Source: Hydrogenovibrio marinus
GTDB taxonomy: Bacteria; Pseudomonadota; Gammaproteobacteria; Thiomicrospirales; Thiomicrospiraceae
Direction of reading: 5' to 3'
Assembly (NCBI RefSeq): GCF_013340845.1
Contig: NZ_AP020335.1
Coordinates: forward strand, 2,232,001 to 2,296,000
Length of the DNA: 64,000 nt
Part shown: in pieces, positions 5,573-63,230 of the stretch
Position numbering within the stretch: the first letter of the stretch is position 1
Layout: the number at the start of each line of letters is the position of its first letter
Position numbers and translations under genes: made by a program
The notes under the pieces: model-generated
Database searches by the model: none
What the model was told of the DNA's origin: nothing
What the model saw: only the letters and a program-made list of their open reading frames with translations

Positions 5573-5591
5573 CCCCAACCTGGCAGATTTT
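5573..5591 (+). repeat. Dispersed 19-bp repeat, copy 1
   Basis: Exact match to the consensus CCCCAACCTGGCAGATTTT. It begins four bases after the gltD terminator, in the convergent gap between gltD and the GGDEF gene. Confidence 0.9.
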
Positions 5592-5599
5592 TTGATTGG

Positions 5600-6586
5600 C
5601 TACAGTGCCTTGACAGAAAACTGGTTTCTGCCATTGTCTTTGGCAAAATACAGTCCTTGATCTGCCTCCTTAAACAAGCGATGAAACTCGCTATCCGCAG
5701 TGGCTGCGCCTATGGAAACTGTTACGCATTCTGTTGGGCTTAACTTGATTTCTTGCACCCTAGACAAGAGTCTCTCGCAGATAGCACGCAAGTCTGACTC
5801 TTGTACCTCTTCCAAAAACACCAAAAACTCATCGCCGCCCCACCGACCAATCAAATCATTTGGACGTACCACTGATACAATCGCTTTAGCCACCTCTTCT
5901 AGTACTCGATCGCCTTCTACATGCCCTAACTTGTCATTGACGTTCTTGAAGTAATCGATATCCACAATCATCAGCGCTTTACTGCCAATATCATTATCTC
6001 GTGCCCAAGAGTCGATCTTCTCGTCAATAAAGCGGCGATTTAACAGCCCAGTTAAAGAGTCGGTTTCACTTTGTTTCTTTTTCGCTTCCATATTTCTGGT
6101 TAGCTCGGAACTTTGCCTATGAATCAAATATTCATGAATACTCGACAGTAAGATGACTGCCAGCGCAACCGCATAAAACCTATCTGGAATGAAGTAGTGA
6201 ATATAGCCGGAAGTTGCCAAAAACAAAATCAATAGTAAATACAGAACCGATGCCACAAAACCGATAAAGAACCCTGCAACATGGAGTATTGAAATAAAAA
6301 TGGGGATGCTCCACAAATAGGCCGTATTTTGGTGCCCACCATCGATAGATAAATAAACGAGAAACGGCAGGGTTACCAATGTAAACCCAAGCTTTATGCC
6401 AAGAGTGAGACCACGTTTGTCTATGGCATAAATCAGTCCGATCAGAATAAAGAAAAAGACGACTAGAACAACGGCATTAGCATATTTTTGATGAAAAAAT
6501 GAAAGTGCGGCAAAGAAGGTGAGAAAAGACAAGTAAATGGCAAACAGCAGACGGATCCTAAATTCCGTTTTAGCAAACACATTCAT
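5600..6586 (-). CDS. Membrane-bound diguanylate cyclase (GGDEF)
   Basis: 328 residues. About five or six hydrophobic helices fill residues 10-155, followed by a C-terminal GGDEF domain that makes c-di-GMP from two GTP. The active-site GGDEF is intact at 250-254. An inhibitory-site RxxD (RPND, 241-244) stands five residues before it, so the enzyme is probably both active and product-inhibited. The membrane part matches no sensor domain I can name. It starts 4 bp after the stop of the EAL-HDOD gene, so the two form an operon and probably one signalling module. Confidence 0.93.
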   Translation of the reverse strand: MNVFAKTEFRIRLLFAIYLSFLTFFAALSFFHQKYANAVVLVVFFFILIGLIYAIDKRGLTLGIKLGFTLVTLPFLVYLSIDGGHQNTAYLWSIPIFISILHVAGFFIGFVASVLYLLLILFLATSGYIHYFIPDRFYAVALAVILLSSIHEYLIHRQSSELTRNMEAKKKQSETDSLTGLLNRRFIDEKIDSWARDNDIGSKALMIVDIDYFKNVNDKLGHVEGDRVLEEVAKAIVSVVRPNDLIGRWGGDEFLVFLEEVQESDLRAICERLLSRVQEIKLSPTECVTVSIGAATADSEFHRLFKEADQGLYFAKDNGRNQFSVKAL

Positions 6587-6590
6587 CTCG

Positions 6591-10551: not shown

Positions 10552-11504
10552 TGCCATTGACACCTTTCCAAGAACAAATAAAACAGGCTTTGCATGAAAA
10601 ACACCGCTTGCAAATTATAGGCAATCAAAGCAAAGTTGCCTTAAATCATGATCACCAGGCTTTGGATATGAGTGGCTATGCGGGCATTACCAGTTATGAC
10701 CCTGCCGAACTAGTCGTAACGGTAAAAGCGGGAACTAAAATTTCAGACTTGAAACAGGAACTTGCCGAACACAATCAAATGCTGGCTTTTGACACGCCTG
10801 ACTACGGTGACTCCACCATTGGCGGCAATTATGCTTGTGGCTTATCCGGTCCCTCTCAGCCATTTTTCGGTGCTTTGCGAGATTTTGTACTTGGCATTAA
10901 AATGGTCGATGGACAAGGTCAACAACTGACTTTTGGCGGCCAAATGATCAAAAACGTTGCCGGCTATGACGTTGCTCGTCTACTGGTAGGGTCAAAAGGA
11001 CTTTTTGGCCTCGTTACTGAAATCAGTTTAAAAGTCCTTCCATTGATGGAAGAAAAAACCTACTCCATAGAAATGGGTCAAGCCGACGCGATTGTCAAAA
11101 TGAACGAAATGGCAGGCACAGCTCTTCCGATTTCCGGTTGCGCATACTACCAAGGGAAACTTTATTATCGATTGATTGGCGTTCATCCACCTCAGTCAGC
11201 TATGCCGGAAGACAACCATATTTGGCAGAAAATGAACCCTTTTAGACCAGAGATTAGTGGAAAGCAGAAATTATGGCGCGTCAGTACCGACTCCATGCAT
11301 CCACCAATCCACAACACCCTATTAGTCGACCAAATTGGCGCAAGGCGTTGGGTCGTCAGCGAAAACAAGCCAGATGTTTCTCATGTCGATTTGTGGAGCT
11401 TGCAAGAAAAGACAAGACGTCCATCGTTTGACTCACATACAAAAATCACTGACATAAAACGGGGGTTAAAGTCAGTGTTTGATCCTTATGAAATTTTCTA
11501 CTGA
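10551..11504 (+). CDS. glcE: Glycolate oxidase subunit GlcE (FAD-binding)
   Basis: 317 residues, a shortened paralogue of GlcD with one FAD_binding_4 domain. The flavin loop appears as DYGDSTIGGNYACG and the membrane-proximal motif as KNVAGYDVARL. The length fits GlcE (about 310-360). Its ATG overlaps the glcD stop (TAATG) and glcF starts 4 bp later, so the three subunits should be made in equal amounts. The weakly conserved C-terminal half makes residue-level claims unsafe, but context leaves little doubt. Confidence 0.93.
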   Translation: MPLTPFQEQIKQALHEKHRLQIIGNQSKVALNHDHQALDMSGYAGITSYDPAELVVTVKAGTKISDLKQELAEHNQMLAFDTPDYGDSTIGGNYACGLSGPSQPFFGALRDFVLGIKMVDGQGQQLTFGGQMIKNVAGYDVARLLVGSKGLFGLVTEISLKVLPLMEEKTYSIEMGQADAIVKMNEMAGTALPISGCAYYQGKLYYRLIGVHPPQSAMPEDNHIWQKMNPFRPEISGKQKLWRVSTDSMHPPIHNTLLVDQIGARRWVVSENKPDVSHVDLWSLQEKTRRPSFDSHTKITDIKRGLKSVFDPYEIFY

Positions 11505-11508
11505 CTTT

Positions 11509-12696
11509 ATGAAAACAGAACTTGCTAAAGACTTACTTTCCCCTTCAGATACACAAACTGCCGATAAAATTTTAAGGGCATGTGTACACTGTGGCTTCTG
11601 CCTTTCCGCTTGCCCAACTTATGGAATTCTCGGTGATGAACTCGACTCTCCCCGTGGAAGAATCTACCTCATTAAACAAACCTTAGAAGGCAATGCCACT
11701 TCAGAAAACTCACTGAAGCATTTAGATAGATGTCTTACCTGTCGCTCATGCGAGACAACTTGTCCTTCTGGCGTTGAGTACGGACATTTACTTGATATTG
11801 GCCGTAAGGTCATGGAACAACAAAGCCCTCGTGCATGGCATCAGCGAATTGTCCGTTATGCATTGCGCTCTTTACTCACTTCTCCAAAACTGTTCAATTT
11901 TCTGATTGCGCTGACCCCTTGGAATAAACACCATAACGTAAATAAAAAGTTACAGTTGCAGACAGAGTCCCAAAAAGATGTTCTTCACAGTACTAAGAGC
12001 GTGTTATTGATTGCCGGGTGCGTACAACCTACGTTAGCACCTAACATCAACTTGTCTTCCAAGAGCGTGCTTTATAAACTTGGCTATGACGTGATCGAAA
12101 CACCGCAATCTCAATGCTGTGGTGCGATCAACCACCATCTGTCTGGGGAAGATGCCGCACTAGAGCAAATCAAGGAAAACATTGATTCTTGGGCGGCACA
12201 ACTTGACCAAGGTGCCGAGGCCATCATCTCGAATGCCAGTGGTTGTGGCGTGATGATTAAAGATTATGCGCATCTATTAAAAGATGATGAAAACTATGCG
12301 GCAAAAGCCAAACGTATTGTAGAACATACCTGCGATATTTCTGAATTCCTACTCAATCAGGATTTATCCCAGTTTAAAAAGGAGAGCAATCAGAAGATTG
12401 TTTTCCAATCGCCCTGCACTTTGCAACATGGTCAAAAACTGCCAGGTCGGGTAGAAGCACTGTTAACTGATTTAGGATTTACATTGAGTCCAGTGAAGGA
12501 TGCGCACCTTTGCTGCGGCTCTGCAGGAACGTATTCTATCTTTCAGAAAAAATTATCTTATCAACTTAGAGACAACAAGATTCAGTCGCTTTTAAAAGAA
12601 GCTCCCGAAATCATTGTTACCGCAAATATCGGTTGTCTAACACACCTCCAAAAGGGGACTAGCACACCGGTTAAACACTGGATAGAACTTCTTTAA
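11509..12696 (+). CDS. glcF: Glycolate oxidase iron-sulfur subunit GlcF
   Basis: 395 residues from this ATG. Two 4Fe-4S clusters are visible (C25, C28, C31, C35 and C75, C78, C81, C85), followed by two CCG-type cysteine domains (CCGAIN and CCGSAG). It passes electrons from GlcD/GlcE to the quinone pool. Earlier in-frame starts exist at 11479 (TTG) and 11488 (ATG) inside glcE. The ATG at 11509 is preferred because the protein then begins about 25 residues before the first cysteine, as in E. coli GlcF. A small hairpin without a T-run covers the stop codon (12687-12706). Confidence 0.93.
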   Translation: MKTELAKDLLSPSDTQTADKILRACVHCGFCLSACPTYGILGDELDSPRGRIYLIKQTLEGNATSENSLKHLDRCLTCRSCETTCPSGVEYGHLLDIGRKVMEQQSPRAWHQRIVRYALRSLLTSPKLFNFLIALTPWNKHHNVNKKLQLQTESQKDVLHSTKSVLLIAGCVQPTLAPNINLSSKSVLYKLGYDVIETPQSQCCGAINHHLSGEDAALEQIKENIDSWAAQLDQGAEAIISNASGCGVMIKDYAHLLKDDENYAAKAKRIVEHTCDISEFLLNQDLSQFKKESNQKIVFQSPCTLQHGQKLPGRVEALLTDLGFTLSPVKDAHLCCGSAGTYSIFQKKLSYQLRDNKIQSLLKEAPEIIVTANIGCLTHLQKGTSTPVKHWIELL

Positions 12697-27926: not shown

Positions 27927-29024
27927 ATGAGTTCATCTGCCCTACCGCCTCATGATCAGGAAATGACACTCGTTCAACATCTGCTTGAACTGAGAAACTC
28001 AATGACTAAGGGTATTCTTGCCATTCTGGTAGCTTTCTTGGCGCTATTTCCTTTTGCAAATGAACTTTATACTTACATTTCCGAACCGCTGACACGCTTT
28101 TTGCCTGCCGGCACAAGCATGATTGCAACAGGTGTTGCATCCCCTTTCTTAACGCCTTTTAAGTTGAGTTTGGTCTTGGGCGTATACGTTGCGATGCCGG
28201 TTCTTCTCTATCAGGCTTGGCGCTTCATTGCTCCTGCTTTGTATTCGCATGAAAAACAACTGGTCGCTCCAATCCTGTTTTTCAGCTCGTTCCTGTTTTA
28301 TGCAGGTGGCGCCTTTGCTTTCTATGTAGTATTCCCTTTGGTATTCGGTTTCTTATCGACCACTGCACCGCATGGCGTTACCATTGCGACTGATATCTCG
28401 CTCTACCTCGACTTCGTTATCAAAATGTTCTTTGCCTTTGGCGTAGCATTTGAAGTACCGGTGGTCGTTGTCATCCTGATTTTGACAGGCATGGTTTCTG
28501 CCGAGAAATTAACCCACGCGCGCCCTTACATCATTGTGGCAGCCTTCATTATCGGTATGCTGTTAACCCCACCGGATGTGGTTTCTCAAACCATGCTGGC
28601 GGTTCCGATGTGGCTACTTTATGAAACGGGCGTGATCGTCGGTGCTTATGTCAAAAAACGACGAGACAAAGCCAAAGACCTGCGTGAAGCCAAAGAGGCG
28701 AAATCCGAAACTGGAGAGAAACAAACTTCAGGTGAAGCGAAAACTTCAGCGACAACTGCTTCTGCCGCGGCTGCTTCGACCTTCACACCAAATCCTGTAC
28801 CGGATGATATTGAATTTGACGACCGCTATGCAGATCAAATCGATTCATTAGAAGAGGATGAGGATTGGGATAATGCCTTTGATGAAATCGATGCAGAATT
28901 CCAAGCGCTTGAAGAAGACTACAAAAAACGTCAAAATGACGAGTCACCTCAAAATAGCGACGGTCAGGATGAACCTCAAAACGAAGCGAAAGATGACGCT
29001 TCAGAAGAGAAGCCTAAATCTTAA
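27927..29024 (+). CDS. tatC: Twin-arginine translocase protein TatC with acidic C-terminal extension
   Basis: 365 residues. The first about 248 make a normal TatC with six helices (MTLVQHLLELRNS start, conserved FEVPVV and LLTPPDVVSQ). The remaining about 117 residues are a cytoplasmic tail: first lysine-rich, then alanine/serine-rich, then strongly acidic with low complexity. Most TatC proteins end near residue 250, so this extension is unusual. The reading frame is intact and there is no sign of frameshift. Confidence 0.95.
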   Translation: MSSSALPPHDQEMTLVQHLLELRNSMTKGILAILVAFLALFPFANELYTYISEPLTRFLPAGTSMIATGVASPFLTPFKLSLVLGVYVAMPVLLYQAWRFIAPALYSHEKQLVAPILFFSSFLFYAGGAFAFYVVFPLVFGFLSTTAPHGVTIATDISLYLDFVIKMFFAFGVAFEVPVVVVILILTGMVSAEKLTHARPYIIVAAFIIGMLLTPPDVVSQTMLAVPMWLLYETGVIVGAYVKKRRDKAKDLREAKEAKSETGEKQTSGEAKTSATTASAAAASTFTPNPVPDDIEFDDRYADQIDSLEEDEDWDNAFDEIDAEFQALEEDYKKRQNDESPQNSDGQDEPQNEAKDDASEEKPKS

Positions 29025-29055
29025 AGAATATGTCTCCCATCAGTTGAGAGCACAA

Positions 29056-30865: not shown

Positions 30866-31552
30866 ATGGCATTCCTGATTATTGCGTTTGTTCTTTTGTT
30901 TATCATCACCAGCGTACCGAGCTTGTGGACTAAACACATCCTCAATAAATACAGCAAACCGCATCCTGACATTCCGGGCAGCGGCCATCAGTTCGCCGAA
31001 CACCTCATCAACAAATACCAACTCAACATTCGAGTGGAAGAAACCCAGGAAGGTGATCATTACGACCCTATCAACAAAGTCGTCAGACTATCGCCGGAGA
31101 ATTATCACGCCAACTCACTGACCGCCATCACCACCGTTGCCCATGAAATCGGCCATGCCTTGCAAGACCAAGCGAATTACGAACCGCTAAAGCAGCGTAC
31201 CGTGTTAATCGAGCGTGCGAGATGGATGCAGCAAATGAGTGGTATCGCTTTAATGGCGACTCCGATCTTGATTCCGTTGATGCATACGCCAATGATTGGT
31301 TTGGTGACATTTGCCGCAGGCTTTATCGGTATGGGTGTGCCGGTTATCATTCACCTCAGCACCTTGCCGGTAGAGTTTGATGCCAGCTATAACCGAGCCC
31401 TGCCTTTATTGAAAGAAGGCGGTTATCTGAGTAATAAAGACTTAAAAACCAGTAAGAGAATCCTTACTGCTTGTGCCATGACTTATGTTTCCGCATCCCT
31501 GTCCAGTCTGTTCAATTTATGGAAATGGCTGCGCGCGCTAAAACGTCACTAA
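30866..31552 (+). CDS. Neutral zinc metallopeptidase, YugP type
   Basis: 228 residues. An N-terminal helix, then the zinc motif HEIGH (93-97), then two or more hydrophobic stretches (about 115-150). This matches the YugP family of membrane-anchored zinc proteases. Substrates are unknown. It starts 4 bp after the DUF255 gene, so the two are probably co-expressed. It converges on comF. Confidence 0.88.
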   Translation: MAFLIIAFVLLFIITSVPSLWTKHILNKYSKPHPDIPGSGHQFAEHLINKYQLNIRVEETQEGDHYDPINKVVRLSPENYHANSLTAITTVAHEIGHALQDQANYEPLKQRTVLIERARWMQQMSGIALMATPILIPLMHTPMIGLVTFAAGFIGMGVPVIIHLSTLPVEFDASYNRALPLLKEGGYLSNKDLKTSKRILTACAMTYVSASLSSLFNLWKWLRALKRH

Positions 31553-31557: not shown

Positions 31558-31576
31558 AAAATCTACCAGGTTGGGT
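31558..31576 (-). repeat. Dispersed 19-bp repeat, copy 3a, inverted
   Basis: On the minus strand this reads ACCCAACCTGGTAGATTTT, two mismatches to consensus. It faces copy 3b at 31590-31608, and together they form a hairpin between the convergent protease and comF genes. Confidence 0.85.
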
Positions 31577-32333: not shown

Positions 32334-32381
32334 CATTGCCCCTAACCACCAAAACTGAATCAGTCTAGCCTTCGTTTCCGT

Positions 32382-42569: not shown

Positions 42570-44816
42570 TCAGCTCATCTCTTGCGGATCGACATCTATC
42601 GACCAACGCACCTTGTTCACCAGCGGGTGCGCGTAGATATTCGACTCCAGACTACCCAACCAATGATGTAGCAATCCCCGGTGCGAACTTTGCAGCAACA
42701 ACTGATAACGAAATCGTCCTTGTCGTCGTAACATCGGTGCGGAAACCGGGCCAAACGCCTCCAAAGGCGCTGACCCCAACCTGGCAGATTTTGTCTGGTC
42801 GACCGCTTTCAATTGCAATGCTGATTCTATGTCCAAAAGAAACTGCCAAGCGGAATGCGGGTCAATAGATTCCGCACGCAATAGAATCTGATAACTAAAC
42901 GGCGGTAGCTCTCCCGCTTTACGTTCGTCCAATGCCTCTTTGGCAAAGGCATCATAACCATGCTCGACCAAAGTTTTCAGTAACGGATGGTCGGGGTGAT
43001 GCGTCTGAATCACCACCTCGCCTTCTCTTTCCGCACGCCCTGCACGCCCGGCAACCTGTACCACCAATTGCGCCATGCGTTCCGCCGCACGGAAGTCACA
43101 ACTGAACAAGCCTTGGTCGATATCCAACAACGCCACCAATGTCACTTTAGGAAAGTGATGCCCCTTCGCCAGCATTTGCGTGCCAATGAGAATATCCGCC
43201 TTACCTTCACGGGCAAGCTGCGTGGCTTCCGCCATCTGACCTTTGTTTCGGGTGGTGTCACGGTCGATACGCAAAGTCTTATAGTTTGGGAACCAACTCT
43301 GAATAATGGTTTCCAGTTTTTCCGTGCCCTGACCGACATTCACAAACTCTTGCTCGCCACAACTCGGGCAAGCTTGTGGAGCCTTTTGTTGATAACCACA
43401 ATGGTGGCAACGCAACTCACGGAATTGATGATGGTAAGTCATATTCGCATCGCAACTCGGGCATGCCGCCTGCCAGCCACAGCTATGACACATCAGCACC
43501 GGTGCGAATCCTCGGCGATTCAAGAACAATAACACCTGCCCTTGTTGCTCAAGATGATTTGTAATCATCTCTCGTAAGGCTGAAGAAACCCCTTCATGTT
43601 GCTGCACTGATTTATCACCACGCACATCCAGCAACCTCATTTCAGGCATGGATGCACCACCGGCGCGTTGCGTCAGTTTCAGATAGCCATATCGTCCCGA
43701 CATGGCATTGTGCAAGGTTTCCAAAGACGGCGTCGCTGACCCCAACACCACTGGCACTTTTTCCAACTGCGCACGACGAACCAAGGCATCTCGTGCCGAG
43801 TAACGGAAGTTGTCCTGTTGTTTGAAAGACAGGTCATGTTCTTCATCGAGAATGCACAACCCCAAATTGGCAAAGGGTGTGAATAATGCCGAACGCGTCC
43901 CCAACAAAACTTTCACTTGATTTGACTGCACCATATACCAAGCGCAGTGGCGTTCTCTGTCGGTCAAATCCGAATGCATCACCGCCACAGGTTGATTCAA
44001 AAACCGTTCGAATCGCTCTACGGTTTGCGGCGTTAGCCCAATTTCCGGCACCAACACCAATACCTGTTTGCCTTGTGCAATCGTACTTTCGATCATGCCA
44101 AGGTAGGTTTCCGTTTTACCGCTGCCGGTCACCCCTTCCAACAAAAAGGCATGAAAATCTTCTGTCTGCAACGCTTTATCTAATACCGCATCCACTGCTG
44201 CCTGTTGTTCTTCATTCAATGAGTGATTCGGGTCTTCCGCTTGCTGCCACGCATGCAGGCAATTCTTCTCGGTTTTGTCCACCCAACCCATTTCATGGAA
44301 ACGTTTCATCGGTGTGCGCCAGCCACTCAAACAAGCGGTTAAAGTCGATTCCGTTACTGGATAAGGATGAGATTTGAGGAATTCCAGCACATTCAATTGC
44401 TGGATGGCATTTGAACGGATTTTATCTGCCGCTTCGGCACGACCCGTGTCATTCAACTGCCATGCCGTGACACCTTCCAACGCAACCGCCTCGCCTTCTT
44501 TCAAGCGTTTAGGCAATGCTGTCTGCATCACATTGCCGATAGGTTCGTGATAATAGTGCGCCGCCCATTGCAAGAACTGCAAATCGCGCTCGGAAAAAAT
44601 CGGTGCGGCATCCACCACTTCGGAAATCAGACGAATCTTTTTCACATCGAGATCCGTCGTCTCCTTTATCGACATGACAACGCCGATTAGTTTTCGATTA
44701 CGAAACGGCACCCAGACACGTCCGCCAACCACAGGCAGAATCTGTTTTTCATCATAGACATATTGATAATCCAAGGGCGTCAAAAACGGCCCTGGCACGG
44801 CGACCTGAATAAACAT
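42570..44816 (-). CDS. priA: Primosomal replication protein N' (PriA helicase)
   Basis: 748 residues. An N-terminal DNA-binding domain, Walker A GVTGSGKTETY (228-238), DEEH (324-327), and the zinc-binding block with CHSC, CPSC, CHHC and CPSC pairs. It restarts stalled replication forks. A copy of the 19-bp repeat lies near the 3' end and is read as KSARLGS, in a variable linker just before the conserved FGPVSAP. Divergent from pxpA, 48 bp apart. Confidence 0.96.
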   Translation of the reverse strand: MFIQVAVPGPFLTPLDYQYVYDEKQILPVVGGRVWVPFRNRKLIGVVMSIKETTDLDVKKIRLISEVVDAAPIFSERDLQFLQWAAHYYHEPIGNVMQTALPKRLKEGEAVALEGVTAWQLNDTGRAEAADKIRSNAIQQLNVLEFLKSHPYPVTESTLTACLSGWRTPMKRFHEMGWVDKTEKNCLHAWQQAEDPNHSLNEEQQAAVDAVLDKALQTEDFHAFLLEGVTGSGKTETYLGMIESTIAQGKQVLVLVPEIGLTPQTVERFERFLNQPVAVMHSDLTDRERHCAWYMVQSNQVKVLLGTRSALFTPFANLGLCILDEEHDLSFKQQDNFRYSARDALVRRAQLEKVPVVLGSATPSLETLHNAMSGRYGYLKLTQRAGGASMPEMRLLDVRGDKSVQQHEGVSSALREMITNHLEQQGQVLLFLNRRGFAPVLMCHSCGWQAACPSCDANMTYHHQFRELRCHHCGYQQKAPQACPSCGEQEFVNVGQGTEKLETIIQSWFPNYKTLRIDRDTTRNKGQMAEATQLAREGKADILIGTQMLAKGHHFPKVTLVALLDIDQGLFSCDFRAAERMAQLVVQVAGRAGRAEREGEVVIQTHHPDHPLLKTLVEHGYDAFAKEALDERKAGELPPFSYQILLRAESIDPHSAWQFLLDIESALQLKAVDQTKSARLGSAPLEAFGPVSAPMLRRQGRFRYQLLLQSSHRGLLHHWLGSLESNIYAHPLVNKVRWSIDVDPQEMS
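42774..42792 (+). repeat. Dispersed 19-bp repeat, copy 4, inside priA
   Basis: Exact consensus on the plus strand, antisense to priA, about 200 bp before the priA stop. Confidence 0.9.
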
Positions 44817-44864: not shown

Positions 44865-45593
44865 ATGCAAAACATGATTCTCATTAATTGCGACATGGGG
44901 GAAAATCTCACCCCCACCCCGGATGCCTCTGTCATGCCGCACATCCATCTTGCGAATATCGCCTGTGGCGGTCATGCAGGAGATATTGCCAGCATGATGG
45001 AAACACTCGCCCTCGCAAAACAGCACGGCGTAAAAGTCGGCGCCCATCCAAGCTATCCAGATCAAGCTAACTTCGGACGTCAATCCATCAACCTATCCGC
45101 AGCCGAACTGCACGAAACTCTAGCCAACCAAGTTTCGCTGCTTGATAAACTTGCGGGTGAATTGGATTTAACGCTTCACCACATCAAACCTCACGGAGCG
45201 CTCTATTTGGACATGATGCGTTCGGATGACCTCTTCAAGCAAGTCCTGTCTTTTTGCCAAGACTTCAATCAAGGTAAAAACGCACCCTTAAAACTGATGA
45301 TACAAGGCGGCATTAAAGATGCCGACTACCAAGCACTTGCAGATGCTTTCGGTGTGGAACTGTTGTTTGAAGCCTTTGCCGACCGAGCCTATTTGGACAG
45401 CGGGCAACTTGCACCTCGTAGCCAGCCGAATAGTTTATATCAACAGGCAGAAGATATCGTCCAACAAAGTTGGATGTTTCACGAGGAACATCAACAACAT
45501 ACTTTACCCAATACCTTATGTTTCCACTCGGACAATCCTGCATCAGTGGCAGCACTGATTGCCTTTGCCAACCAGCTTAAGGCTGCCGTATGA
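44865..45593 (+). CDS. pxpA: 5-oxoprolinase subunit A (LamB/YcsF family)
   Basis: 242 residues. Conserved blocks INCDMGE, NIACGGHAGD and GAHPSYPD mark the family, with KPHGALY in the middle. With PxpB and PxpC it hydrolyses 5-oxoproline to glutamate using ATP. Alternative start at 44874 (MILINCDMGE), which matches most homologues. Overlaps pxpB by 4 bp. Confidence 0.94.
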   Translation: MQNMILINCDMGENLTPTPDASVMPHIHLANIACGGHAGDIASMMETLALAKQHGVKVGAHPSYPDQANFGRQSINLSAAELHETLANQVSLLDKLAGELDLTLHHIKPHGALYLDMMRSDDLFKQVLSFCQDFNQGKNAPLKLMIQGGIKDADYQALADAFGVELLFEAFADRAYLDSGQLAPRSQPNSLYQQAEDIVQQSWMFHEEHQQHTLPNTLCFHSDNPASVAALIAFANQLKAAV

Positions 45594-46324
45594 CGTTTCA
45601 GTATCAAATCCAACCCGCTTCCGAAAACGCTTTGTTGCTGACTTTTAACACCGGCACGGAAAAAACCGCCGGGCTAATGGATTTTTTGCCATTACTGCAA
45701 CAACTCATTCCCCAAATTGAAACCGTTTTTGCTCAAAGTTTACGAGAGCTGGTACCTTCCTATCACAGCCTGTTATTGGTATTCGATTTACAGCAGTTGA
45801 GCTATGCAACGGCAAAACAACAGCTTCAAAACTTGGTCGAACAACTACAACAAGACACCCCCAACCTGGTAGATTTTTATCAAGATTCTGCTGGAAAAAC
45901 ACATGTTATTCCGGTGTGTTATGACTTGCAATTCGGGTTAGATTTAGCCGAACTTGCCCAACAAAAAGCACTCTCCACTGAAGACATCATCCGCATCCAC
46001 AGTGAGCGAACTTATCAGGTGTGCGCCATCGGTTTTGCGCCCGCCTTCGCGTATTTGGGAGAAGTGGATAAACGCATCGCCTCACCGCGCCATGCCTCAC
46101 CACGCTTGAGCATACCCGCAGGCAGTGTCGGTATTGCCGACCGACAAACCGCCATCTACCCCAAAGCCTCTCCCGCCGGTTGGCAAATACTCGGGCAAAC
46201 GCCTTGGGATTTATCGCTCAACAATCCAGACAATCTCATGCGCTTTCGTGTGGGCGACCAAGTGAAGTTTGAACCCATTGGATATAACGAATTCCTCGCA
46301 ATCAAAAACGGAGACGCCTCATGA
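45590..46324 (+). CDS. pxpB: 5-oxoprolinase subunit B (KipI family)
   Basis: 244 residues. The conserved C-terminal half has IGFAPAFAYLGEVD, PRLSIPAGSVGIAD and SPAGWQILG. It overlaps pxpA and pxpC by 4 bp each. The 19-bp repeat (45859-45877) is read as PNLVDF in the variable linker before HVIPVCYD, where homologues differ in sequence, which suggests it was added or is tolerated there. Confidence 0.94.
   Translation: MTFQYQIQPASENALLLTFNTGTEKTAGLMDFLPLLQQLIPQIETVFAQSLRELVPSYHSLLLVFDLQQLSYATAKQQLQNLVEQLQQDTPNLVDFYQDSAGKTHVIPVCYDLQFGLDLAELAQQKALSTEDIIRIHSERTYQVCAIGFAPAFAYLGEVDKRIASPRHASPRLSIPAGSVGIADRQTAIYPKASPAGWQILGQTPWDLSLNNPDNLMRFRVGDQVKFEPIGYNEFLAIKNGDAS
45859..45877 (+). repeat. Dispersed 19-bp repeat, copy 5, inside pxpB
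   Basis: 18 of 19 match (T for C at position 12). It lies in the sense direction of pxpB, in a different reading frame from the copy in the DUF255 gene. Confidence 0.85.
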
Positions 46325-47504: not shown

Positions 47505-47975
47505 GTGAATGATATGACTGATGAGACAAACAGCTTCCAACGTATAGGCTCTGAATCAAACTCCAAAGTTGGGAAAAACTTTGAACTTAATGCTCAAAAA
47601 TTTTTCAAATCTATTGGCATTCACTTAGCTCTAAATTTAAAAGTCCCCGTTGGGGTTACTTCAGAAAAGAAAGACCATGCTTTTGATTTAGGCAATGAAC
47701 AGGAAAAAATTATTGTTGAATGTAAATCACATAAGTGGACAACAGGAGGAAATGTCCCAAGTGCAAAGCTGACCGTTTGGAATGAGGCCATGTACTATTT
47801 TTTAGTTGCTCCTGATAATTTCAGAAAAATCATGTTTGTATTAAAAGACACCAACGAAAAAACAACAGAAACACTCGCTGAATATTATTTCAGACGCTAC
47901 TCTCATCTTATCCCTAGTAATGTAGAGTTTTGGGAATATAACGAATCACTTGATTACGCTCAGCGCATTCGATAA
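47505..47975 (+). CDS. Unrecognised protein with PD-(D/E)XK nuclease-like motif
   Basis: 156 residues. The pattern E27...D61...E72-C-K74 (FDLG followed by IIVECKS) resembles the catalytic core of restriction-endonuclease-like enzymes, and the preceding GKNFELNAQKFFK helix fits the first acidic residue. The family is not one I can name. The start is GTG 47505 or ATG 47514; neither has a clear ribosome site. A variant of the 19-bp repeat follows 14 bp after the stop. With the 76-residue gene it may form a small two-gene unit. Confidence 0.6.
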   Translation: MNDMTDETNSFQRIGSESNSKVGKNFELNAQKFFKSIGIHLALNLKVPVGVTSEKKDHAFDLGNEQEKIIVECKSHKWTTGGNVPSAKLTVWNEAMYYFLVAPDNFRKIMFVLKDTNEKTTETLAEYYFRRYSHLIPSNVEFWEYNESLDYAQRIR

Positions 47976-47989: not shown

Positions 47990-48008
47990 CCCCAACCTGA
48001 CAGATTTT
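47990..48008 (+). repeat. Dispersed 19-bp repeat, copy 6
   Basis: 18 of 19 match (A for G at position 11). It lies just after the nuclease-like gene, at the left of a 224-bp gap that also contains small inverted repeats at 48135-48152 and 48159-48185. Confidence 0.85.
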
Positions 48009-48199: not shown

Positions 48200-48856
48200 A
48201 TGTCCGGCTTCCGTATCCGTTATCAAACTATCGAATTTGATGTATTCGATATTCATATCCGCAGTCTGAAAGACAACCAACAGTTTTATGACCCGTTTGG
48301 TGAAGCCGAAGGCATGGGTATTTCTTCTGCACAGTGGCCAATATTCGGCGTGCTTTGGCCTTCTAGCATCGTGCTGGCAAATGAGATGGAGCATTTCGAT
48401 ATTAAAGGAAAGCGGATTTTAGAGGTCGGTTGTGGGTTGGGGCTTTCTAGCCTATTGCTAAATGCGCGTCATGCGGATATTACAGCGACGGACATTCACC
48501 CGCAGGCAGGCAAGTTTCTGGTGGAAAATGCTCGGCTCAATCAAGAAAAGGAGATTCCTTTTTTAACAACAAATTGGAACGACGAGCATTCAGGTTTAGG
48601 ATATTTTGACCTGATAATCGGCTCAGATTTACTCTATGAAACGAACCATATCGAGCTTTTGTCGCAGTTTATCGACCGCCACGCCAATCCGACAGCCGAA
48701 GTGATTTTGGTAGACCCCGGCCGCGGCAATCATGCCAAATTCAGCAAGGAAATGGTGGCTAAGGGTTTCAGCCATAGCCAACAAAAGCTGGACGAACAGC
48801 AGCAAGCAAGCCTAGACACAGAATTCAAAGGCGTTATCCTAAATTATCAACGATAG
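48200..48856 (+). CDS. Class I SAM methyltransferase, lysine-methyltransferase-like
   Basis: 218 residues. The SAM loop EVGCGLG lies at 75-81, with ATDIHP after the second strand and the post-motif DLIIGSDLLYE. WPIFGVLWPSSIVLA before the SAM loop is typical of the METTL-like protein lysine methyltransferase family. The target is unknown. AAAGG stands six bases before the ATG. Repeat copies lie in the gaps on both sides. Confidence 0.8.
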   Translation: MSGFRIRYQTIEFDVFDIHIRSLKDNQQFYDPFGEAEGMGISSAQWPIFGVLWPSSIVLANEMEHFDIKGKRILEVGCGLGLSSLLLNARHADITATDIHPQAGKFLVENARLNQEKEIPFLTTNWNDEHSGLGYFDLIIGSDLLYETNHIELLSQFIDRHANPTAEVILVDPGRGNHAKFSKEMVAKGFSHSQQKLDEQQQASLDTEFKGVILNYQR

Positions 48857-48884: not shown

Positions 48885-48903
48885 CCCCAACCTGGCAGAT
48901 TTT
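48885..48903 (+). repeat. Dispersed 19-bp repeat, copy 7
   Basis: Exact consensus match, 28 bp after the methyltransferase stop. Confidence 0.9.
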
Positions 48904-56188: not shown

Positions 56189-56551
56189 GTGCACTCACTA
56201 AAACTATTGCTGGTTGAAGATGCAGTAGTACTGCAAAAACTTCAGTCAGCCATGTTTCAGAAATTTGGCCATCATCCCGTCGTTGCCGCTTCGGGTGAAC
56301 AGGCCTTAGAAATACTAAAAAAAGAATCCTTTGACGTCATTATGATGGACTTGGTCATGCCGGGTATGGATGGCTTTGAATGCACTCGAAACATTAGACA
56401 ATCCGGTATTAACACGCCAATCGTCGCTTTAAGTGGAAACGATGATGAGGAAACACTTGAGATATGCTATGAAGTTGGCATAGACGGTTTTCTAAAAAAG
56501 CCGACCAATAAAGCTGCATTTGATGCCATGATGCATCATATATTTGAGTAA
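56189..56551 (+). CDS. Single-domain response regulator (CheY-like)
   Basis: 120 residues, one receiver domain. Acidic pocket E10/D11, phosphorylation site D54 (MMDLVMPGMDG), S82 and K104 are all present. The start is GTG with GGAG five bases upstream. It stands 20 bp after the PAS chemoreceptor and is likely co-transcribed. No output domain, so it may act by protein contact; its kinase is not in the window. Confidence 0.92.
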   Translation: MHSLKLLLVEDAVVLQKLQSAMFQKFGHHPVVAASGEQALEILKKESFDVIMMDLVMPGMDGFECTRNIRQSGINTPIVALSGNDDEETLEICYEVGIDGFLKKPTNKAAFDAMMHHIFE

Positions 56552-56953
56552 CCGCGCTATAAAAACCCTGCGATGCGAATCGCAACTGACACACTGACAG
56601 TGCCGAACAACTGCCACTCTTACACAAGTTGCCCTCTTGGTAGAGGTCAATCAATCGAATGGCGGCACCCACTTTTCAATCATCGCACTCAAAACCTTTG
56701 AGGCAATATGTTTAAGGTCAGCCCTTTCGCCAACATCTTCACCGCCATCTTCGTCGCCACTTTCCCCCCCAACCTGGCAGATTTTGTGGGTGAGAATAGA
56801 GTTACGTCTACCTCAAAAAGGTATTCTTGCTGATTCAACAACAATGAATTCTCTAAACACTAACAAAAATGCAAAAATGTCTTGCTAAAATCCTAACGAC
56901 CAACGCGCGAAAACACGTGCGTTCAGCCCTGTTTCAATCCTAAGGAGTCAAAC
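56552..56953. other. Gap between the response regulator and cytochrome b561
   Basis: 402 bp without a credible gene. Short open frames exist but lack ribosome sites and family-like sequence. It holds repeat copy 8 and, near 56910-56931, a small imperfect inverted repeat just before the cytochrome gene, which may be part of its promoter region. Confidence 0.5.
56767..56785 (+). repeat. Dispersed 19-bp repeat, copy 8
   Basis: Exact consensus match, preceded by three more C's. Confidence 0.9.
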
Positions 56954-57517
56954 GTGGATACCTATAGCAAGCTCAGTAAACAAACTATTTTTCTTCACTG
57001 GGTGGTCGCCACCTTTATGATTGGCCTCTTGGCGGTCGGTGTCTATATGCACGAGACCAAGAGCTTCTTTTTATACTCCTGGCACAAATCTTTTGGTGTG
57101 CTGATTGTGGTATTTGTTCTTTGGCGCCTCTACAACCGTATGAAAAGCGGCTGGTTGGAGCCTGTCAGACAGTACAAGCCGGTTGAAATCAGCCTATCGA
57201 AAATCGTTCACTGGTTGTTGATTATCGGAACTATCCTGATGCCTATTTCCGGGATGATGATGTCTGGCCTAGGCGGCTATGGTATTCCGTTCTTCGGTTT
57301 AGAGTTGGTGGCACCAAACCCGAACCCTGACGATCCGACAAAAATGATTCCGTTGAATGCGCCTTTGGCTCAAGCGGGTAAAGTGGTTCACAGTTTAGTG
57401 GGTGATATTTTGATCGGTGCGATTGCACTACATATTGCCGGTGCGTTGAAACATCACTTCATCGATAAGGACAACACCCTTAATCGTATGAAAGGAATGG
57501 ATATTTCCTCAAAATAA
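56954..57517 (+). CDS. Cytochrome b561
   Basis: 187 residues with four membrane helices and the haem-binding histidines expected for bacterial b561 (LHWVVATF, SWHKSFG, VHWLLI, ALHIAGALKHH). It transfers electrons between quinol and a periplasmic partner, often against superoxide. The start is GTG at 56954, with AAGGAG six bases upstream. A terminator follows. Confidence 0.91.
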   Translation: MDTYSKLSKQTIFLHWVVATFMIGLLAVGVYMHETKSFFLYSWHKSFGVLIVVFVLWRLYNRMKSGWLEPVRQYKPVEISLSKIVHWLLIIGTILMPISGMMMSGLGGYGIPFFGLELVAPNPNPDDPTKMIPLNAPLAQAGKVVHSLVGDILIGAIALHIAGALKHHFIDKDNTLNRMKGMDISSK

Positions 57518-57601: not shown

Positions 57602-57620
57602 ACCCAACCTAGCAGATTTT
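57602..57620 (+). repeat. Dispersed 19-bp repeat, copy 9 (17 of 19)
   Basis: ACCCAACCTAGCAGATTTT, in the convergent gap between cytochrome b561 and the GGDEF-EAL gene. Confidence 0.8.
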
Positions 57621-57636: not shown

Positions 57637-59703
57637 TCAAATAAATTGCGCAGGTCGCCCAAGCAGATAGCCTTGGAACAAATCCACTTCTTTGTTCTCC
57701 AGCCAACGTTTTTGCGCTTCGGTCTCGACACCTTCAATCAACACTTTCAGGTTCATGGCTTTCGACATGCCTATCATGGCTTTTACCATCTCTTGTGTTT
57801 CGCTTGAGGTTTCTATGTCGTTCACAAAAGCGCGGTCAATTTTCACAATATCCACCGGTAGGCTTTTCAGAATTGCCAACGAGGCATAGCCCGTTCCGAA
57901 ATCATCCAACAAAATATGACAACCCTTTTTCCTTAACTGCTCCAAAACGGCAATGGTGGAACTCAAGTTGTGCATGATAGCGGTTTCCGTCACTTCAAAA
58001 TTGAAGCGGGAAATGGGTACTGATTTTTGATGCGCAATCGCAGAGAGTTTCTCGACCAGTTTGGGGTTGTCCAACTGCACAGGAGACAGGTTGATGGCGA
58101 CCTTGATATTGTTATCCAACTTCTTTGCAACAAGATCGTCGCACACCTTTTCAAACAAAGCGAAGCCCAGCTGAGAAATCAAACCATTCTGCTCGGAATA
58201 CTCAATAAAGTGTTGCGGGTAAACCAACTCGCCTTCTTCATTTTTGAGGCGAATCAAGGCTTCATATTCCACTGGCGAATCAAAACTGTCCTTGTGAAAT
58301 ATTGGCTGATAATGCATTTCGATATGGTTTTTCGGCATCTCTATCGCCTGCCAGATCAAATGCGCTACCTTGTTCATTTCAATCAGTTCTTGCTCATCTC
58401 TTTCTTCAAAAAACTGATAGCTGTTTCGTCCTTGAGTTTTAGCTCTGCACATGGCAGAGTCCGCTCGTCGTAGCAACTCCTCTACACTGCCACCATGCTC
58501 CGGATAAAAGGCAATGCCGATGGATGCTGTCAATCGGTGGATGTGCTTACCACGGACGTAAGGTTTAGACAGTCTGCGAATGAGGTTCTCCGCCGCTTCT
58601 ACAACACTCCTGTCGCGAGTGATTTTCGTCATCACCATCACGAACTCATCTCCGCCGAATCGGCAGGCCAAATCTGATGTCTTCGTGTAAAAGGAAATTC
58701 TTTTGGAAACTTCTCCGAGAATCCAATCCCCTTCGCTGTGCCCGAAGTGATCATTAACCGTTTTGAATTTATCCAAATCGATGAATAGAAGAGCGATTTT
58801 TCCAGACGCATTTTTCTGCGTTTCCAGAATACTGTTTTCGACAAAGCTGTCGAGTAGCATTCGGTTTGCCAACCCCGTCAGAGAATCATAGTAAGCCAGT
58901 CTATCCAGCCGCTTTTCATCCGCTTTGCGTTCACTCATGTCGGCTAAAACGCAAACATAAAAGGGTTTGCCGGAAAGCTTGTCCACAACTTTTGAGGCTT
59001 GTAGCCAGCCGGGATAAATGGTTCCGTCTTTTCGTCGGTTCCAGATCTCTCCTCTCCAGCTTCCACAATCATCCAGACTTTTCCACATGTTTAGGTAAAA
59101 GTCTTCATCATGTACGCCGGAACGGAATAGGGCGGGCCGTTGATTGAGCACTTCCCTTTGCTCATAGCCCGTTGTTTCAGTAAATGCTTTATTCGATTTG
59201 ATGATTCTGCCTTGTGCATCCATCACCAAAATGCCATCAGCAACTTGGTCGATTAAAGCATTTGCAAGATATAAAGAATGAATCGTCGTAGGTTCTTCAG
59301 GAATCCGGTTCAAGTACACCAGACAGTAGGGGTCGCCTGAAGATTCCGGCTTCAATAATTGACTATTGAGCGTAAAAAAACCACCACCTTGAAGCTCGAA
59401 AACATGGTTTTGGTACACCACTTGATCAACAATAGAAGCTTCCACGGTATTTAAGAAATTGGTAAAGGTTTCCATACTATCGGCCGATAGTAATTCATGG
59501 AAATAAAGATCGATAGCACTTTCCGCCAAGCTTAAAAACTCATAAGCCGGCGTATTGATACAAATGATCTTTCCGTTTGGACTTAGAAGCACAACCGGGG
59601 TTTGACAAGATTCAAACAAAACGTGATAGAACCTTAGACCCTTGAACGACTTCTTTGCCAAAAAATCACATGCAATTAGACTTTCGCTCTCTGTTTGAGC
59701 CAT
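57637..59703 (-). CDS. PAS-PAS-GGDEF-EAL protein
   Basis: 688 residues with no membrane helix. Two PAS domains (about 25-135 and 145-265), GGDEF (active site 350-354) and EAL (481-483, with DDFGTGY at 600-606 and K621). Both catalytic motifs are intact, so it may make or break down c-di-GMP. The inhibitory-site position reads KTSD (341-344) instead of RxxD, so product inhibition is probably lost. GAGGAT stands eight bases before the ATG. Confidence 0.93.
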   Translation of the reverse strand: MAQTESESLIACDFLAKKSFKGLRFYHVLFESCQTPVVLLSPNGKIICINTPAYEFLSLAESAIDLYFHELLSADSMETFTNFLNTVEASIVDQVVYQNHVFELQGGGFFTLNSQLLKPESSGDPYCLVYLNRIPEEPTTIHSLYLANALIDQVADGILVMDAQGRIIKSNKAFTETTGYEQREVLNQRPALFRSGVHDEDFYLNMWKSLDDCGSWRGEIWNRRKDGTIYPGWLQASKVVDKLSGKPFYVCVLADMSERKADEKRLDRLAYYDSLTGLANRMLLDSFVENSILETQKNASGKIALLFIDLDKFKTVNDHFGHSEGDWILGEVSKRISFYTKTSDLACRFGGDEFVMVMTKITRDRSVVEAAENLIRRLSKPYVRGKHIHRLTASIGIAFYPEHGGSVEELLRRADSAMCRAKTQGRNSYQFFEERDEQELIEMNKVAHLIWQAIEMPKNHIEMHYQPIFHKDSFDSPVEYEALIRLKNEEGELVYPQHFIEYSEQNGLISQLGFALFEKVCDDLVAKKLDNNIKVAINLSPVQLDNPKLVEKLSAIAHQKSVPISRFNFEVTETAIMHNLSSTIAVLEQLRKKGCHILLDDFGTGYASLAILKSLPVDIVKIDRAFVNDIETSSETQEMVKAMIGMSKAMNLKVLIEGVETEAQKRWLENKEVDLFQGYLLGRPAQFI

Positions 59704-60347: not shown

Positions 60348-60575
60348 CCCTCATAATTCCACAAAGACCGAATTAACATTACATTTGTTTAATGTATCCG
60401 TCTAAAATAAAACTGCTTTTCAAATATATAAAACTGAGATGGCGCAACGAGCGGGGTGAACATTAATTCTCCAGGTTTGGTATTTCCTCTCAAAACTGAT
60501 GCATTTTAACGACTGATTGTTTTCATTTTGAAATCTGCCCGGATTCCATAACATTTTTGCCATCCTGAGAGAAAT

Positions 60576-63188
60576 ATGAGCGAAAAGAAAAACTTAAAAA
60601 ATGACCTCGTGTACAACCTGCTGATAGTCCTGTCGTTCACGCTGTTCACTTTTGGTTCATACGCCTATCTCAATAAGCCGCTTGAAGAGCCTTCATGGCC
60701 TGCCACCATACCCGGGTTTGCCTTCTCGCCTTTTCATGATGACCAAAGTCCTTTTTCAGACACCTATCCCGACCAAAAGTCGATTGATGCTGACCTGTCA
60801 TTGCTCTCTGGACGTGTGCATGCCATTAGAACCTATTCCGTCGATGGCGTCTTAGGTGACATTACCGCACTGGCAGCAAAACATAACATCAATATTACCT
60901 TGGGAGCTTGGCTCGGAGCAGACTTGGATGCCAATGAGCGCGAACTGACCCGACTGAAAAACATCGTGCAACGCCCCCCTTACAATGTGGTTCGCGTGAT
61001 TGCCGGTAACGAAGCCATACTCAGACAAGATCTAACCGTTGATCAGATGATTTCCTATCTGGACCAATTACGAAAAGACATCCAAGTCCCTGTCAGTACC
61101 GCTGAGCCATGGCATGTCTGGCTCAAACACCCTGAGCTGGCACAACACGTCGACTTCCTCGCGGTACACATGCTGCCTTATTGGGAAGGCATTTCCGTCA
61201 ATAAGGCGGTGGGCTACATCGTCAACAAGATGAATTTATTGAAACAAGCCTTTCCCAACAAACCGATTGTCATCGCCGAAGTGGGCTGGCCGAGTAACGG
61301 TCGCAGCATCGGCAGAGCGCATGCTTCCAAAGAAAATGAGGCAATCTTTTTACGCCGCTTCATCAGCAAAGCCCGTGAAGAAGGCTATGTCTACTATGTT
61401 ATGGAAGCCTTCGACCAACCTTGGAAAGCAAAGCTGGAAGGCGCTGCTGGATCCTATTGGGGTGTCTATGACGTTTCACGTAAACCCAAGTTTGAATTCT
61501 ACCGTCCGATTATTCCCATCAAACAGTGGCGTATTCTGGCGATCTCCTCCATCCTCCTCGCCGTGTTTTTGGTGATTTTCTTACTCATGGACAGCAGCAG
61601 CCTCAAGAAGCGTGGACGTACCTTTTTGGTTGGCGTGGCGTTCATGGCATCGTCAGTCATCATCTGGGTGCTGTACCAACATTCATTGCTCTATCAGGAC
61701 TGGATAAGTCGGACCGTCGGGCTGATGCTGATGTTAGGCATCATGGGCGTTTGGTTGGTGATTCTGGTCGAAGCGCATGAATGGGCGGAAGCCTTATGGT
61801 TGCAAAAACGACGCCACCTGAATTTAGCATCCCCAACTCCGGTAGAACACCACAAGTTGCCGTTCGTTTCCATCCATATTCCTGCTTATAACGAGCCGCC
61901 AGATATGATGATCGACACGCTCAACGCCCTATCAAAGCTGGACTACCCGCATTTTGAAGTACTGGTAATCGACAACAACACCGTCGATGAAGCCGTATGG
62001 CAACCCGTACAAAACCATTGTGAAACACTGGGGGAGCGCTTCCGTTTCTTCCATGTCTCGCCGCTTGCGGGCTATAAAGCCGGCGCGCTGAATTTCGCCC
62101 TCAGACACACTCATGCGGACGCACAAGCCATTGCCGTTATCGACAGTGACTATAAGGTCAAACCCGGCTGGCTCAAGCAGATGGCCGTGCATTTCGACGA
62201 CCCGGAAATCGCCATCGTCCAATCTCCTCAAGACTATCGTGACTTTGACCAAAACGCCTTCAAAGCGATGTGCTACGCGGAATACAAAGGCTTTTTCCAT
62301 ATCGGCATGATTACGCGAAACGAGCGCAATGCCATCATCCAACACGGCACCATGACCATTGTGCGCCGCAGTGTGTTGGAAGAAGTCGGTGGCTGGGGTG
62401 AAAGCACCATCACCGAAGATGCCGAACTCGGCTTGAAGATATTTGAGCACGGCTACCAAGCCGCTTATGAACCTACCAGCTATGGACAAGGCTTGATGCC
62501 CGACACCTTTGTCGACTACAAAAAGCAGCGCTATCGCTGGGCGTATGGTGCCATGCAAATCCTACGGGAACATGCTGGGGCGCTCTTCCTCAACAAAACA
62601 CATTTGAATCTGGGACAGCGCTATCACTTTATTGCCGGATGGCTGCCTTGGATTGCTGACGGTTTTAATTTCGTATTCACCCTGCTCGCCATTGCCTGGT
62701 CGATATTGATGATTAGCGACCCTGTGCGCTTCAACGCCCCCAGCATGCTCGTTTCTGCGGTGCCGATTCTGTTTTTCATCTTCAAGCTGTCGAAAATGCT
62801 GATTCTCTACCGAACGCGCATGCATGCCGGATTCAGCACTGCCGTGGCGGCTGCTATCGCCGGATTGTCACTCTCCCACACCATTGCAAAAGCGGTACTC
62901 TATGGTCTGTTTGTAGGGCGACAAATGCCTTTTTTGCGCACGCCAAAGCAAGCCAACGTTGCCCCTATCGCTCAGGCTTTGCGAAATGTTGCACAAGAAG
63001 CAATACTCTTCACATTCCTCGCTCTTCTGCTTATCGGCATTAGCTGGCATGTTGGTTTCCGCTCAGTGGAAACCTTGGTCTGGTGTATTGTGCTGGTGGT
63101 GCAGATGGTGCCCTATGTGTCTGCGGTGATTTTTTCGACTATCAGTGTTCTTCCGAACTCTTCGGCGAAGTGGTTGCAGTTCAAGTGA
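60576..63188 (+). CDS. GH17-GT2 glucan synthase, NdvB-like
   Basis: 870 residues. After an N-terminal helix (about 12-30) comes a GH17-like domain (about 45-315) with both expected glutamates, E145 (AGNEA) and E235 (IAEVGWPS). Then helices (320-400), a GT2 domain (about 430-660) with DSD (523-525), TED (613-615) and QRYRW (651-655), and a C-terminal membrane bundle. This layout matches NdvB-type enzymes that make cyclic or linear beta-1,3-glucans. The product here is inferred. GAGAG stands four bases before the ATG. It converges on gpmA. Confidence 0.88.
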   Translation: MSEKKNLKNDLVYNLLIVLSFTLFTFGSYAYLNKPLEEPSWPATIPGFAFSPFHDDQSPFSDTYPDQKSIDADLSLLSGRVHAIRTYSVDGVLGDITALAAKHNINITLGAWLGADLDANERELTRLKNIVQRPPYNVVRVIAGNEAILRQDLTVDQMISYLDQLRKDIQVPVSTAEPWHVWLKHPELAQHVDFLAVHMLPYWEGISVNKAVGYIVNKMNLLKQAFPNKPIVIAEVGWPSNGRSIGRAHASKENEAIFLRRFISKAREEGYVYYVMEAFDQPWKAKLEGAAGSYWGVYDVSRKPKFEFYRPIIPIKQWRILAISSILLAVFLVIFLLMDSSSLKKRGRTFLVGVAFMASSVIIWVLYQHSLLYQDWISRTVGLMLMLGIMGVWLVILVEAHEWAEALWLQKRRHLNLASPTPVEHHKLPFVSIHIPAYNEPPDMMIDTLNALSKLDYPHFEVLVIDNNTVDEAVWQPVQNHCETLGERFRFFHVSPLAGYKAGALNFALRHTHADAQAIAVIDSDYKVKPGWLKQMAVHFDDPEIAIVQSPQDYRDFDQNAFKAMCYAEYKGFFHIGMITRNERNAIIQHGTMTIVRRSVLEEVGGWGESTITEDAELGLKIFEHGYQAAYEPTSYGQGLMPDTFVDYKKQRYRWAYGAMQILREHAGALFLNKTHLNLGQRYHFIAGWLPWIADGFNFVFTLLAIAWSILMISDPVRFNAPSMLVSAVPILFFIFKLSKMLILYRTRMHAGFSTAVAAAIAGLSLSHTIAKAVLYGLFVGRQMPFLRTPKQANVAPIAQALRNVAQEAILFTFLALLLIGISWHVGFRSVETLVWCIVLVVQMVPYVSAVIFSTISVLPNSSAKWLQFK

Positions 63189-63211
63189 TGTCTATCACGC
63201 TTATAGACTTA

Positions 63212-63230
63212 CCCCAACCTGGTAGATTTT
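63212..63230 (+). repeat. Dispersed 19-bp repeat, copy 10
   Basis: 18 of 19 match (T for C at position 12), in the 61-bp convergent gap between the glucan synthase and gpmA. No hairpin terminator is visible beside it. Confidence 0.85.

Follow-up and report, generated by a model that had tools for sequence, protein, structure and literature searches.

In a 64,000-base stretch of the Hydrogenovibrio marinus genome (G000:C1:2232001-2296000; hereafter the window, meaning the whole stretch analysed), the 19-mer MCCCAACCTRRYAGWTTTT recurs as part of a genome-wide, strongly conserved word whose spelling changes in concert between species. By analogy with known systems, we consider it probable that Hydrogenovibrio and its relatives in the family use a DNA-uptake signal of which this 19-mer is the local dialect. 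The single-contig genome (G000; 2,491,293 bases) held 357 sites at ≤1 mismatch, compared with 0 for a reversed-pattern control, at a density of ~1 per 7 kb. Sites were balanced between strands (193 forward, 164 reverse; p = 0.14), which led us to reject a strand-polarised motif of the KOPS or Chi kind.

Within 464 kb of H. marinus, 76 sites were found at ≤3 mismatches (50 perfect, 17 with one mismatch, 7 with two and 2 with three), such that perfect copies outnumbered singly mismatched ones, 50 vs. 17. Information was restricted to 19 positions and totalled about 32 bits, a value somewhat inflated because the set was chosen at ≤3 mismatches. An initial reading of the window from its letters (the sequence-only reading) had reported no similarity between the flanks of the copies and, consistent with this, conservation ended at the edges of the 19-mer, with flanking positions at or below about 0.3 bit, so that a longer mobile element was rejected. 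The same reading had likened the word to DNA-uptake sequences, and had named beforehand two findings that would speak against this, namely few copies elsewhere in the genome or a 19-mer that is only the conserved part of a longer degenerate mobile element. Neither was found, and its interpretation is therefore supported as a resemblance and an inference, with hundreds of copies present, no longer element, and most of the testable sequence traits of uptake sequences in place.

We assessed the distribution of the word across 74 genomes, H. marinus and 73 relatives. The 19-mer matched in six of them: H. marinus, two members of the same genus, G001 (389 sites) and G004 (280 sites), and G002, G010 and G029 with one site each. 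A scan for exact sites gave at least 120 stretches, at least 111 of them from G001 and at least nine from other organisms with one site each. The G004 dialect is CCCAGCCTGGYAGATTTT, and among the matches listed all but one have CCCAG where H. marinus has CCCAA. De novo counts in sampled stretches of ten other relatives (G009, G005, G006, G002, G007, G010, G013, G041, G040 and G015) placed forms of CCAGGCCTGG top among over-represented 10-mers. The flanks of this palindrome extend towards AAAAWYNACCAGGCCTGGTNRWTTTT, that is, two CCTGGTNRWTTTT half-sites head to head, with a T-tail of varying strength that is weak in G015. The 19-mer retains the right half-site of the palindrome and differs in the left arm. 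Of 62 family genomes, 27 had 84–718 copies of the exact core ACCAGGCCTGGT, four had 16–38 and 31 had 0–6, with 0 copies in G000, G001, G004 and G008. No more than five copies occurred in any of 365 same-class genomes from other families.

G008, which belongs to the same genus, had neither the 19-mer nor the palindrome, and a word of its own was therefore predicted for it if the words form a dialect system. Such a word was then found: the top-ranking repeated 12-mers (at most 7 copies vs. 0.01 expected in 63 kb) assemble into CCCACCCCTGGCGATTTT, with 12 sites at ≤4 mismatches in 63 kb, 4 of them exact. CCCACCCCTGGCGATTTT again has CCTGG and a T-tail, with the left arm different once more, and the four dialects thus share CCTGG as a kernel, with a T-rich tail after it. 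No comparable word was detected in 83, 40 and 40 kb of G012, G037 and G043, respectively, by de novo counts that words at lower densities could escape; the word can apparently be absent from some relatives in the family. Scans of IMG/VR returned three stretches with the asymmetric word and five with the palindrome, one site each, and none was similar by blastn to loci L001–L307.

The fate of orthologous sites was compared between species after sites <300 bp from the end of a stretch were dropped. Spanning alignments in the sampled G004 stretches were available for 34 of 108 H. marinus query sites, and 29 of the 34 were present in G004. The same A-to-G change at position 6 was seen in 28 of these 29 persisting sites, with one unchanged, while the remaining 18 positions were identical at 484 of 522 comparisons (92.7%) against a flank median of 73%. 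Five of the 34 sites were not in place in G004, though in two of these cases a G004 site lay elsewhere within the same intergenic region, and the reverse comparison found 27 of 30 G004 sites present in H. marinus. Between H. marinus and G001, which share a dialect, 56/56 and 57/57 sites were present and position 6 was never altered, with persistence biased upward because the G001 stretches were chosen for holding exact sites.

Palindromes were scored as identical aligned 10-mers, and those present numbered 8/9 from G005 to G006 and 9/10 in reverse (flanks about 75% identical), 13/17 from G002 to G010 and 14/17 in reverse (flanks 94% identical), only 5/11 from G002 to G009 and 5/6 in reverse (flanks about 72%), and 1/2 from G007 to G002. 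From asymmetric to palindromic species, 10 of 105 H. marinus sites had an alignment. The site at L227:3429 aligns with ACCCAGGCCTGG in G002, G009 and G010, and that at L222:18487 with CCAGGCCTGGTTGTTTT in G005; one further site adjoins a palindrome in G005 and another is opposite a copy in G002 that looks asymmetric. ACCCAGGCCTGG may have lost one G to yield the G004 arm, from which a G-to-A change may have yielded the H. marinus arm.

The window holds 13 sites at ≤3 mismatches vs. 0.02 expected in shuffled sequences, which rules out chance recurrence. Their positions, with neighbouring open reading frames (ORFs), are as follows.

5573–5591, + strand: exact copy, between convergent ORFs 4096–5508 (+) and 5600–6586 (−)
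12434–12452, − strand: degenerate copy with 3 mismatches, within ORF 11479–12696 (+), an Fe-S / cysteine-rich domain protein
30754–30772, + strand: copy with 1 mismatch, close to the 3′ end of ORF 28858–30861 (+), a DUF255 protein
31558–31576, − strand: left half of a head-to-head inverted pair, between convergent ORFs 30866–31552 (+) and 31623–32480 (−)
31590–31608, + strand: exact copy, right half of the inverted pair with the 31558 copy, the pair being a strong terminator-like hairpin ending in T/A runs
36387–36405, − strand: degenerate copy with 3 mismatches, within ORF 35667–36617 (+)
42774–42792, + strand: exact copy, within ORF 42570–44816 (−), with PriA helicase domains
45859–45877, + strand: copy with 1 mismatch, within ORF 45590–46324 (+), carboxyltransferase subdomain C/D
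47990–48008, + strand: copy with 1 mismatch, 14 bases past the end of ORF 47505–47975 (+) and ahead of ORF 48200 (+)
48885–48903, + strand: exact copy, 28 bases past the end of ORF 48200–48856 (+)
56767–56785, + strand: exact copy, between ORFs 56189–56551 (+) and 56954–57517 (+)
57602–57620, + strand: copy with 2 mismatches, between convergent ORFs 56954–57517 (+) and 57637–59703 (−)
63212–63230, + strand: copy with 1 mismatch, between convergent ORFs 60576–63188 (+) and 63250–63933 (−)

The eleven good copies and one degenerate copy listed by the sequence-only reading were all present as placed, except that the copy given at 30755 starts at 30754, and the degenerate copy at 12434–12452 (−) is additional. 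Its description of the copies as isolated does not hold for 31558 (−) and 31590 (+), which pair in inverted orientation where two genes converge. Its statement that copies do not fold by themselves agrees with two single copies, which folded no better than shuffled sequence, but not with this pair, for which predicted folding energies were −25.4 kcal/mol on one strand and −31.9 kcal/mol on the other. The excess of + strand copies in the window (10 of the 13) is local when set against the genome-wide balance.

Placement was assessed on sites at ≤3 mismatches with ORFs from a simple longest-ORF script, such that ORF and intergenic counts are approximate. Of the 76 sites in 464 kb of H. marinus, 32 lay in ORFs and 44 outside, where non-ORF sequence makes up 10% of the total (p = 2 × 10−24). 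Among the 42 intergenic sites that could be typed, 27 lay where genes converge, a class with 17% of intergenic bases, and 5 where they diverge, a class with 25%. G004 was alike, with 33 of 51 sites outside ORFs and 20 of these 33 between convergent genes, while in the ten palindromic samples the sites outside ORFs ranged from 0/15 (G015) to 10/17 (G040), and convergent placement is not general among them. Pairing and spacing were determined for 188 sites in 0–1.447 Mb of H. marinus. Adjacent sites ≤200 bp apart formed 31 pairs, every one of them inverted, 16 tail-to-tail and 15 head-to-head, with several fixed spacings, and most of the 157 site clusters consisted of a single site. Direct pairs are possible in relatives, because two were seen among the G001 loci (L137 2728 at 199 bp and L165 7125 at 155 bp). 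Tail-to-tail pairs in L012, L018, L024 and L026 (H. marinus), L045 (G004) and L148 (G001) enclose a second repeat, about CTCGCCGCCCGAAGGGGTAAGGCGAG, which is hairpin-capable by eye and present in three tandem copies in L026.

The frequent placement of typed intergenic sites where genes converge (27 of 42) and the strong fold of the head-to-head pair would suit a transcription terminator or other RNA element, an explanation that we regard as very improbable given that 32 of 76 sites are within ORFs, most clusters are single-site and neither of the two single copies tested folds. Terminators were rejected as the general function on these three counts, and termination also leaves the base change shared by 28 of 29 sites unexplained.

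Merged clusters in H. marinus avoided one another at short range, with 4 gaps <1 kb vs. 16 expected, and were present in every 100-kb bin, with 7 to 17 in each of 14 bins over 0–1.4 Mb. Over this 1.4 Mb, such a spread differs from domain marking of the MatS or Noc type, in which tens of sites are concentrated in one chromosome region. A site for an intracellular architectural or segregation protein, in which a dimer would read the palindrome and a changed dimer the asymmetric forms, fits the occupancy of all 14 bins, the two-fold symmetry in most relatives and the conservation of sites above their flanks. We nevertheless consider it unlikely, in that the sites lack strand or regional bias, such a protein has no need for inverted pairs of several fixed spacings, and G012, G037 and G043 lacked the word in the 83, 40 and 40 kb counted. 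A strict 19-bp consensus at hundreds of sites together with genome-wide respelling would also be unusual for such a protein, a point also made in the uptake-sequence literature (PMC1626085).

Three site-free gaps >47 kb were found in 0–1.447 Mb, two of which were read in part. The gap at 612–662 kb holds polysaccharide genes at two annotated places and a TnsE-like domain, with 33–41% GC in 16 kb, and the end of the gap at 861–912 kb holds NiFe-hydrogenase and HypF genes adjoining a lysyl-type tRNA synthetase. Within coding sequence, 25 of 74 interior sites had an alignment to ORFs from species that carry a different word or no word, and the coding sites lie in poorly conserved protein segments, since identity at the site averaged 25% vs. 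59% overall.

A palindrome iterated through the genome might also arise and persist through the joint action of a methyltransferase and mismatch repair, as for HIP1 of cyanobacteria, and the kernel CCTGG is a Dcm-type site. We find this highly doubtful, as three of the four dialects are asymmetric, 18–19 bp long and carry a T-tail, the word is not palindromic in G000, G001, G004 or G008, and we know of no methyltransferase targets approaching the dialect words in length. HIP1 is similarly a frequent palindrome that is replaced by another palindrome in some lineages, which favours the comparison, but it is 8 bp long and methyltransferase-associated (PMC4390886).

The reading of the word as a DNA-uptake signal is supported by sequence traits that it appears to share with uptake sequences: a strong consensus, inverted pairs, placement at gene ends, mutual avoidance, conservation above flanks, and dialects. 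By analogy, we infer an uptake-sequence-like system with the same working principle as the DNA-uptake sequences (DUS) of Neisseriaceae and the uptake signal sequences (USS) of Pasteurellaceae. A surface receptor specific for the DNA sequence, probably one of the minor pilins of a type IV pilus, would bind fragments bearing the word, the bound DNA would enter via ComEC, and recombination would swap in homologous alleles. Fragments with the preferred word would enter more often, such that the word would accumulate and stay, and a shift in receptor preference would lead biased uptake to rewrite orthologous sites one by one to the new dialect. The palindromic relatives sampled carry two half-sites head to head. 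The low-GC polysaccharide genes of the 50-kb site-free gap at 612–662 kb, and the presence in H. marinus of ComEC and of ATPase genes of the retraction and extension types, may also count in favour of an uptake signal.

In DUS, which are read by ComP, dialects likewise extend across the family around a short kernel that all of them share, inverted pairs occur and are linked to terminators, and some relatives have no word at all (PMC3630211). DUS are also conserved, occupy permissive positions in the core genome and do not occur in genes acquired recently (PMC2397512). They differ in sequence, in length (10–12 bp) and in number (thousands of copies), compared with hundreds of copies of an 18–19-bp word or flank-extended palindrome in Hydrogenovibrio, where no ComP homologue was identified and uptake is putative. 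USS, of the Hin and Apl types, resemble the word in having a core followed by a 3′ AT-rich segment that starts with A and ends in T, in perfect copies outnumbering singly mismatched ones, and in two or more dialects (PMC1626085), as well as in the many copies within ORFs (PMC1939737). About 10% of USS are inverted repeats, and USS spacing is even (PMC1939737). Their 9-bp core is not palindromic and occurs about once per kb vs. ~1 per 7 kb for the Hydrogenovibrio word. PpdA is a predicted USS receptor (PMC12616744).

ComEC is present in H. marinus, and comEC (G000:C1:1094366-1096987 in this genome) carries at least one local word, symmetric or asymmetric, in all seven species compared, with 1, 1, 1, 3, 2, 2 and 2 words in G000, G004, G009, G002, G005, G010 and G006, respectively. 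Four H. marinus genes belong to the T2SSE ATPase family. Size and adjacency led us to take two neighbouring ones for PilT and PilU, the third is CpaF-like, and the fourth encodes 564 aa and is flanked, by eye, by TPR-like and GspF-like proteins, an order that we take to match mshN-mshE-mshG. A cluster of pilins like those of the mannose-sensitive haemagglutinin (MSHA) pilus lies at 2036–2039 kb. A degenerate DNA pattern for pilin starts matched 10 places in H. marinus vs. 7 for the reversed pattern, and two of the 10 are pilins, both in the MSHA-like cluster. Pilins of this cluster diverge faster than most neighbouring genes, but this names no receptor because fast divergence is usual for surface proteins.

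N_methyl pilin matches numbered 2–3 in G000, G001, G004 and G008 vs. 7–10 in the other seven genus members. The same four genomes lack a T2SSE ATPase of ~490–509 aa beside a five-pilin cluster (type II secretion-like) that is present in six other genus members, an imperfect link with dialect because G005 also lacks the ATPase yet keeps the palindrome. PF05567 (PilY1) had 0 matches in 11 genus genomes and is uninformative because 14 control genomes were also silent. PF12019 (GspH) matched in 3 of 62 family genomes, all palindrome-poor (G012 with 0 copies, G018 and G082 with 2 each), which is too few to build on.

Several results weigh against an uptake signal. The density of ~1 per 7 kb is far below the ~1 per kb given for DUS and USS (PMC1626085), a palindromic uptake word is without precedent in the DUS and USS literature consulted, and DNA-uptake-enhancing sequences (DUES) are stressed as non-palindromic (PMC1939737). 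Most alignable sites (6 of 10) had no counterpart across the palindrome boundary, and overall gap regularity was only weakly better than random (coefficient of variation 0.89, p = 0.08). The presence of ComEC is weak evidence because Escherichia coli and other control genomes match too, no PilA-type pilin was detected in H. marinus, where only the MSHA-like cluster was seen, and among the pilins found and compared none was singled out as receptor of the word. An alignment gap was present at 9 of 25 coding sites vs. 7% in control windows, and some coding sites may thus have come by insertion. This raised gap rate, like the many near-identical copies and the second repeat enclosed by some tail-to-tail pairs, would suit a word that is left over from, or targeted by, a small mobile repeat of the repetitive extragenic palindrome (REP) or miniature inverted-repeat transposable element (MITE) kind. 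We give that origin the least credence of all, as conservation is limited to 19 bp, orthologous sites are retained across flanks of 73% identity, coding-site gaps have no fixed size and a palindrome stands at the aligned place in two loci.

If the word is an uptake signal, Hydrogenovibrio-related sulfur-oxidising Gammaproteobacteria might constitute a third independent lineage that marks its own DNA, a broader proposal on which we are evenly divided. Its widespread and probably ancestral form would be the palindrome of CCTGGTNRWTTTT half-sites, from which some Hydrogenovibrio branches would have broken symmetry by respelling one arm (CCCAA, CCCAG, CCCACC) while the opposite half-site stayed, and the receptor may be on the MSHA-type pilus.

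To our knowledge, long genome-wide uptake words come only from Neisseriaceae and Pasteurellaceae. A literature search, with most subscription journals and all bioRxiv preprints outside its coverage, found no published report of the 19-mer and no paper on Hydrogenovibrio or Thiomicrorhabdus genomes with type IV pili. For CCAGGCCTGG, no title among the matches listed concerned bacteria of this family, and the word was unreported among the papers listed for natural transformation in Hydrogenovibrio, competence in Thiomicrospira crunogena and palindromic uptake sequences. An uptake function would add a further case of an uptake word, from a genus in which four dialects and both symmetric and asymmetric forms occur, and from a family with seemingly word-free members. 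It would make testable whether such a word spreads by molecular drive or is retained because it favours exchange among kin, and by what route a receptor changes in step with hundreds of sites in the genome. A further implication would be that an uptake word can be long, sparse and palindromic, such that surveys tuned to 9–12-mers at one per kb may miss others.

Other repeats were seen in the same material. H. marinus (window and L031–L040) has a GC-rich repeat around TAGCCGGCTCCGACCTGGCCGCGGA (18 copies) and the word ACCACAGCGG (34 counts), both strongly over-represented. In G005 (L056–L062), a repeat around TTTTCTAAGCCGCCTGC, presumably akin to a type I-F CRISPR repeat, occurs about 18 times, and TGTTTCACGT/TTTCACGTGAAA, which we take to resemble parS sites, are over-represented in G040 (L090–L093).

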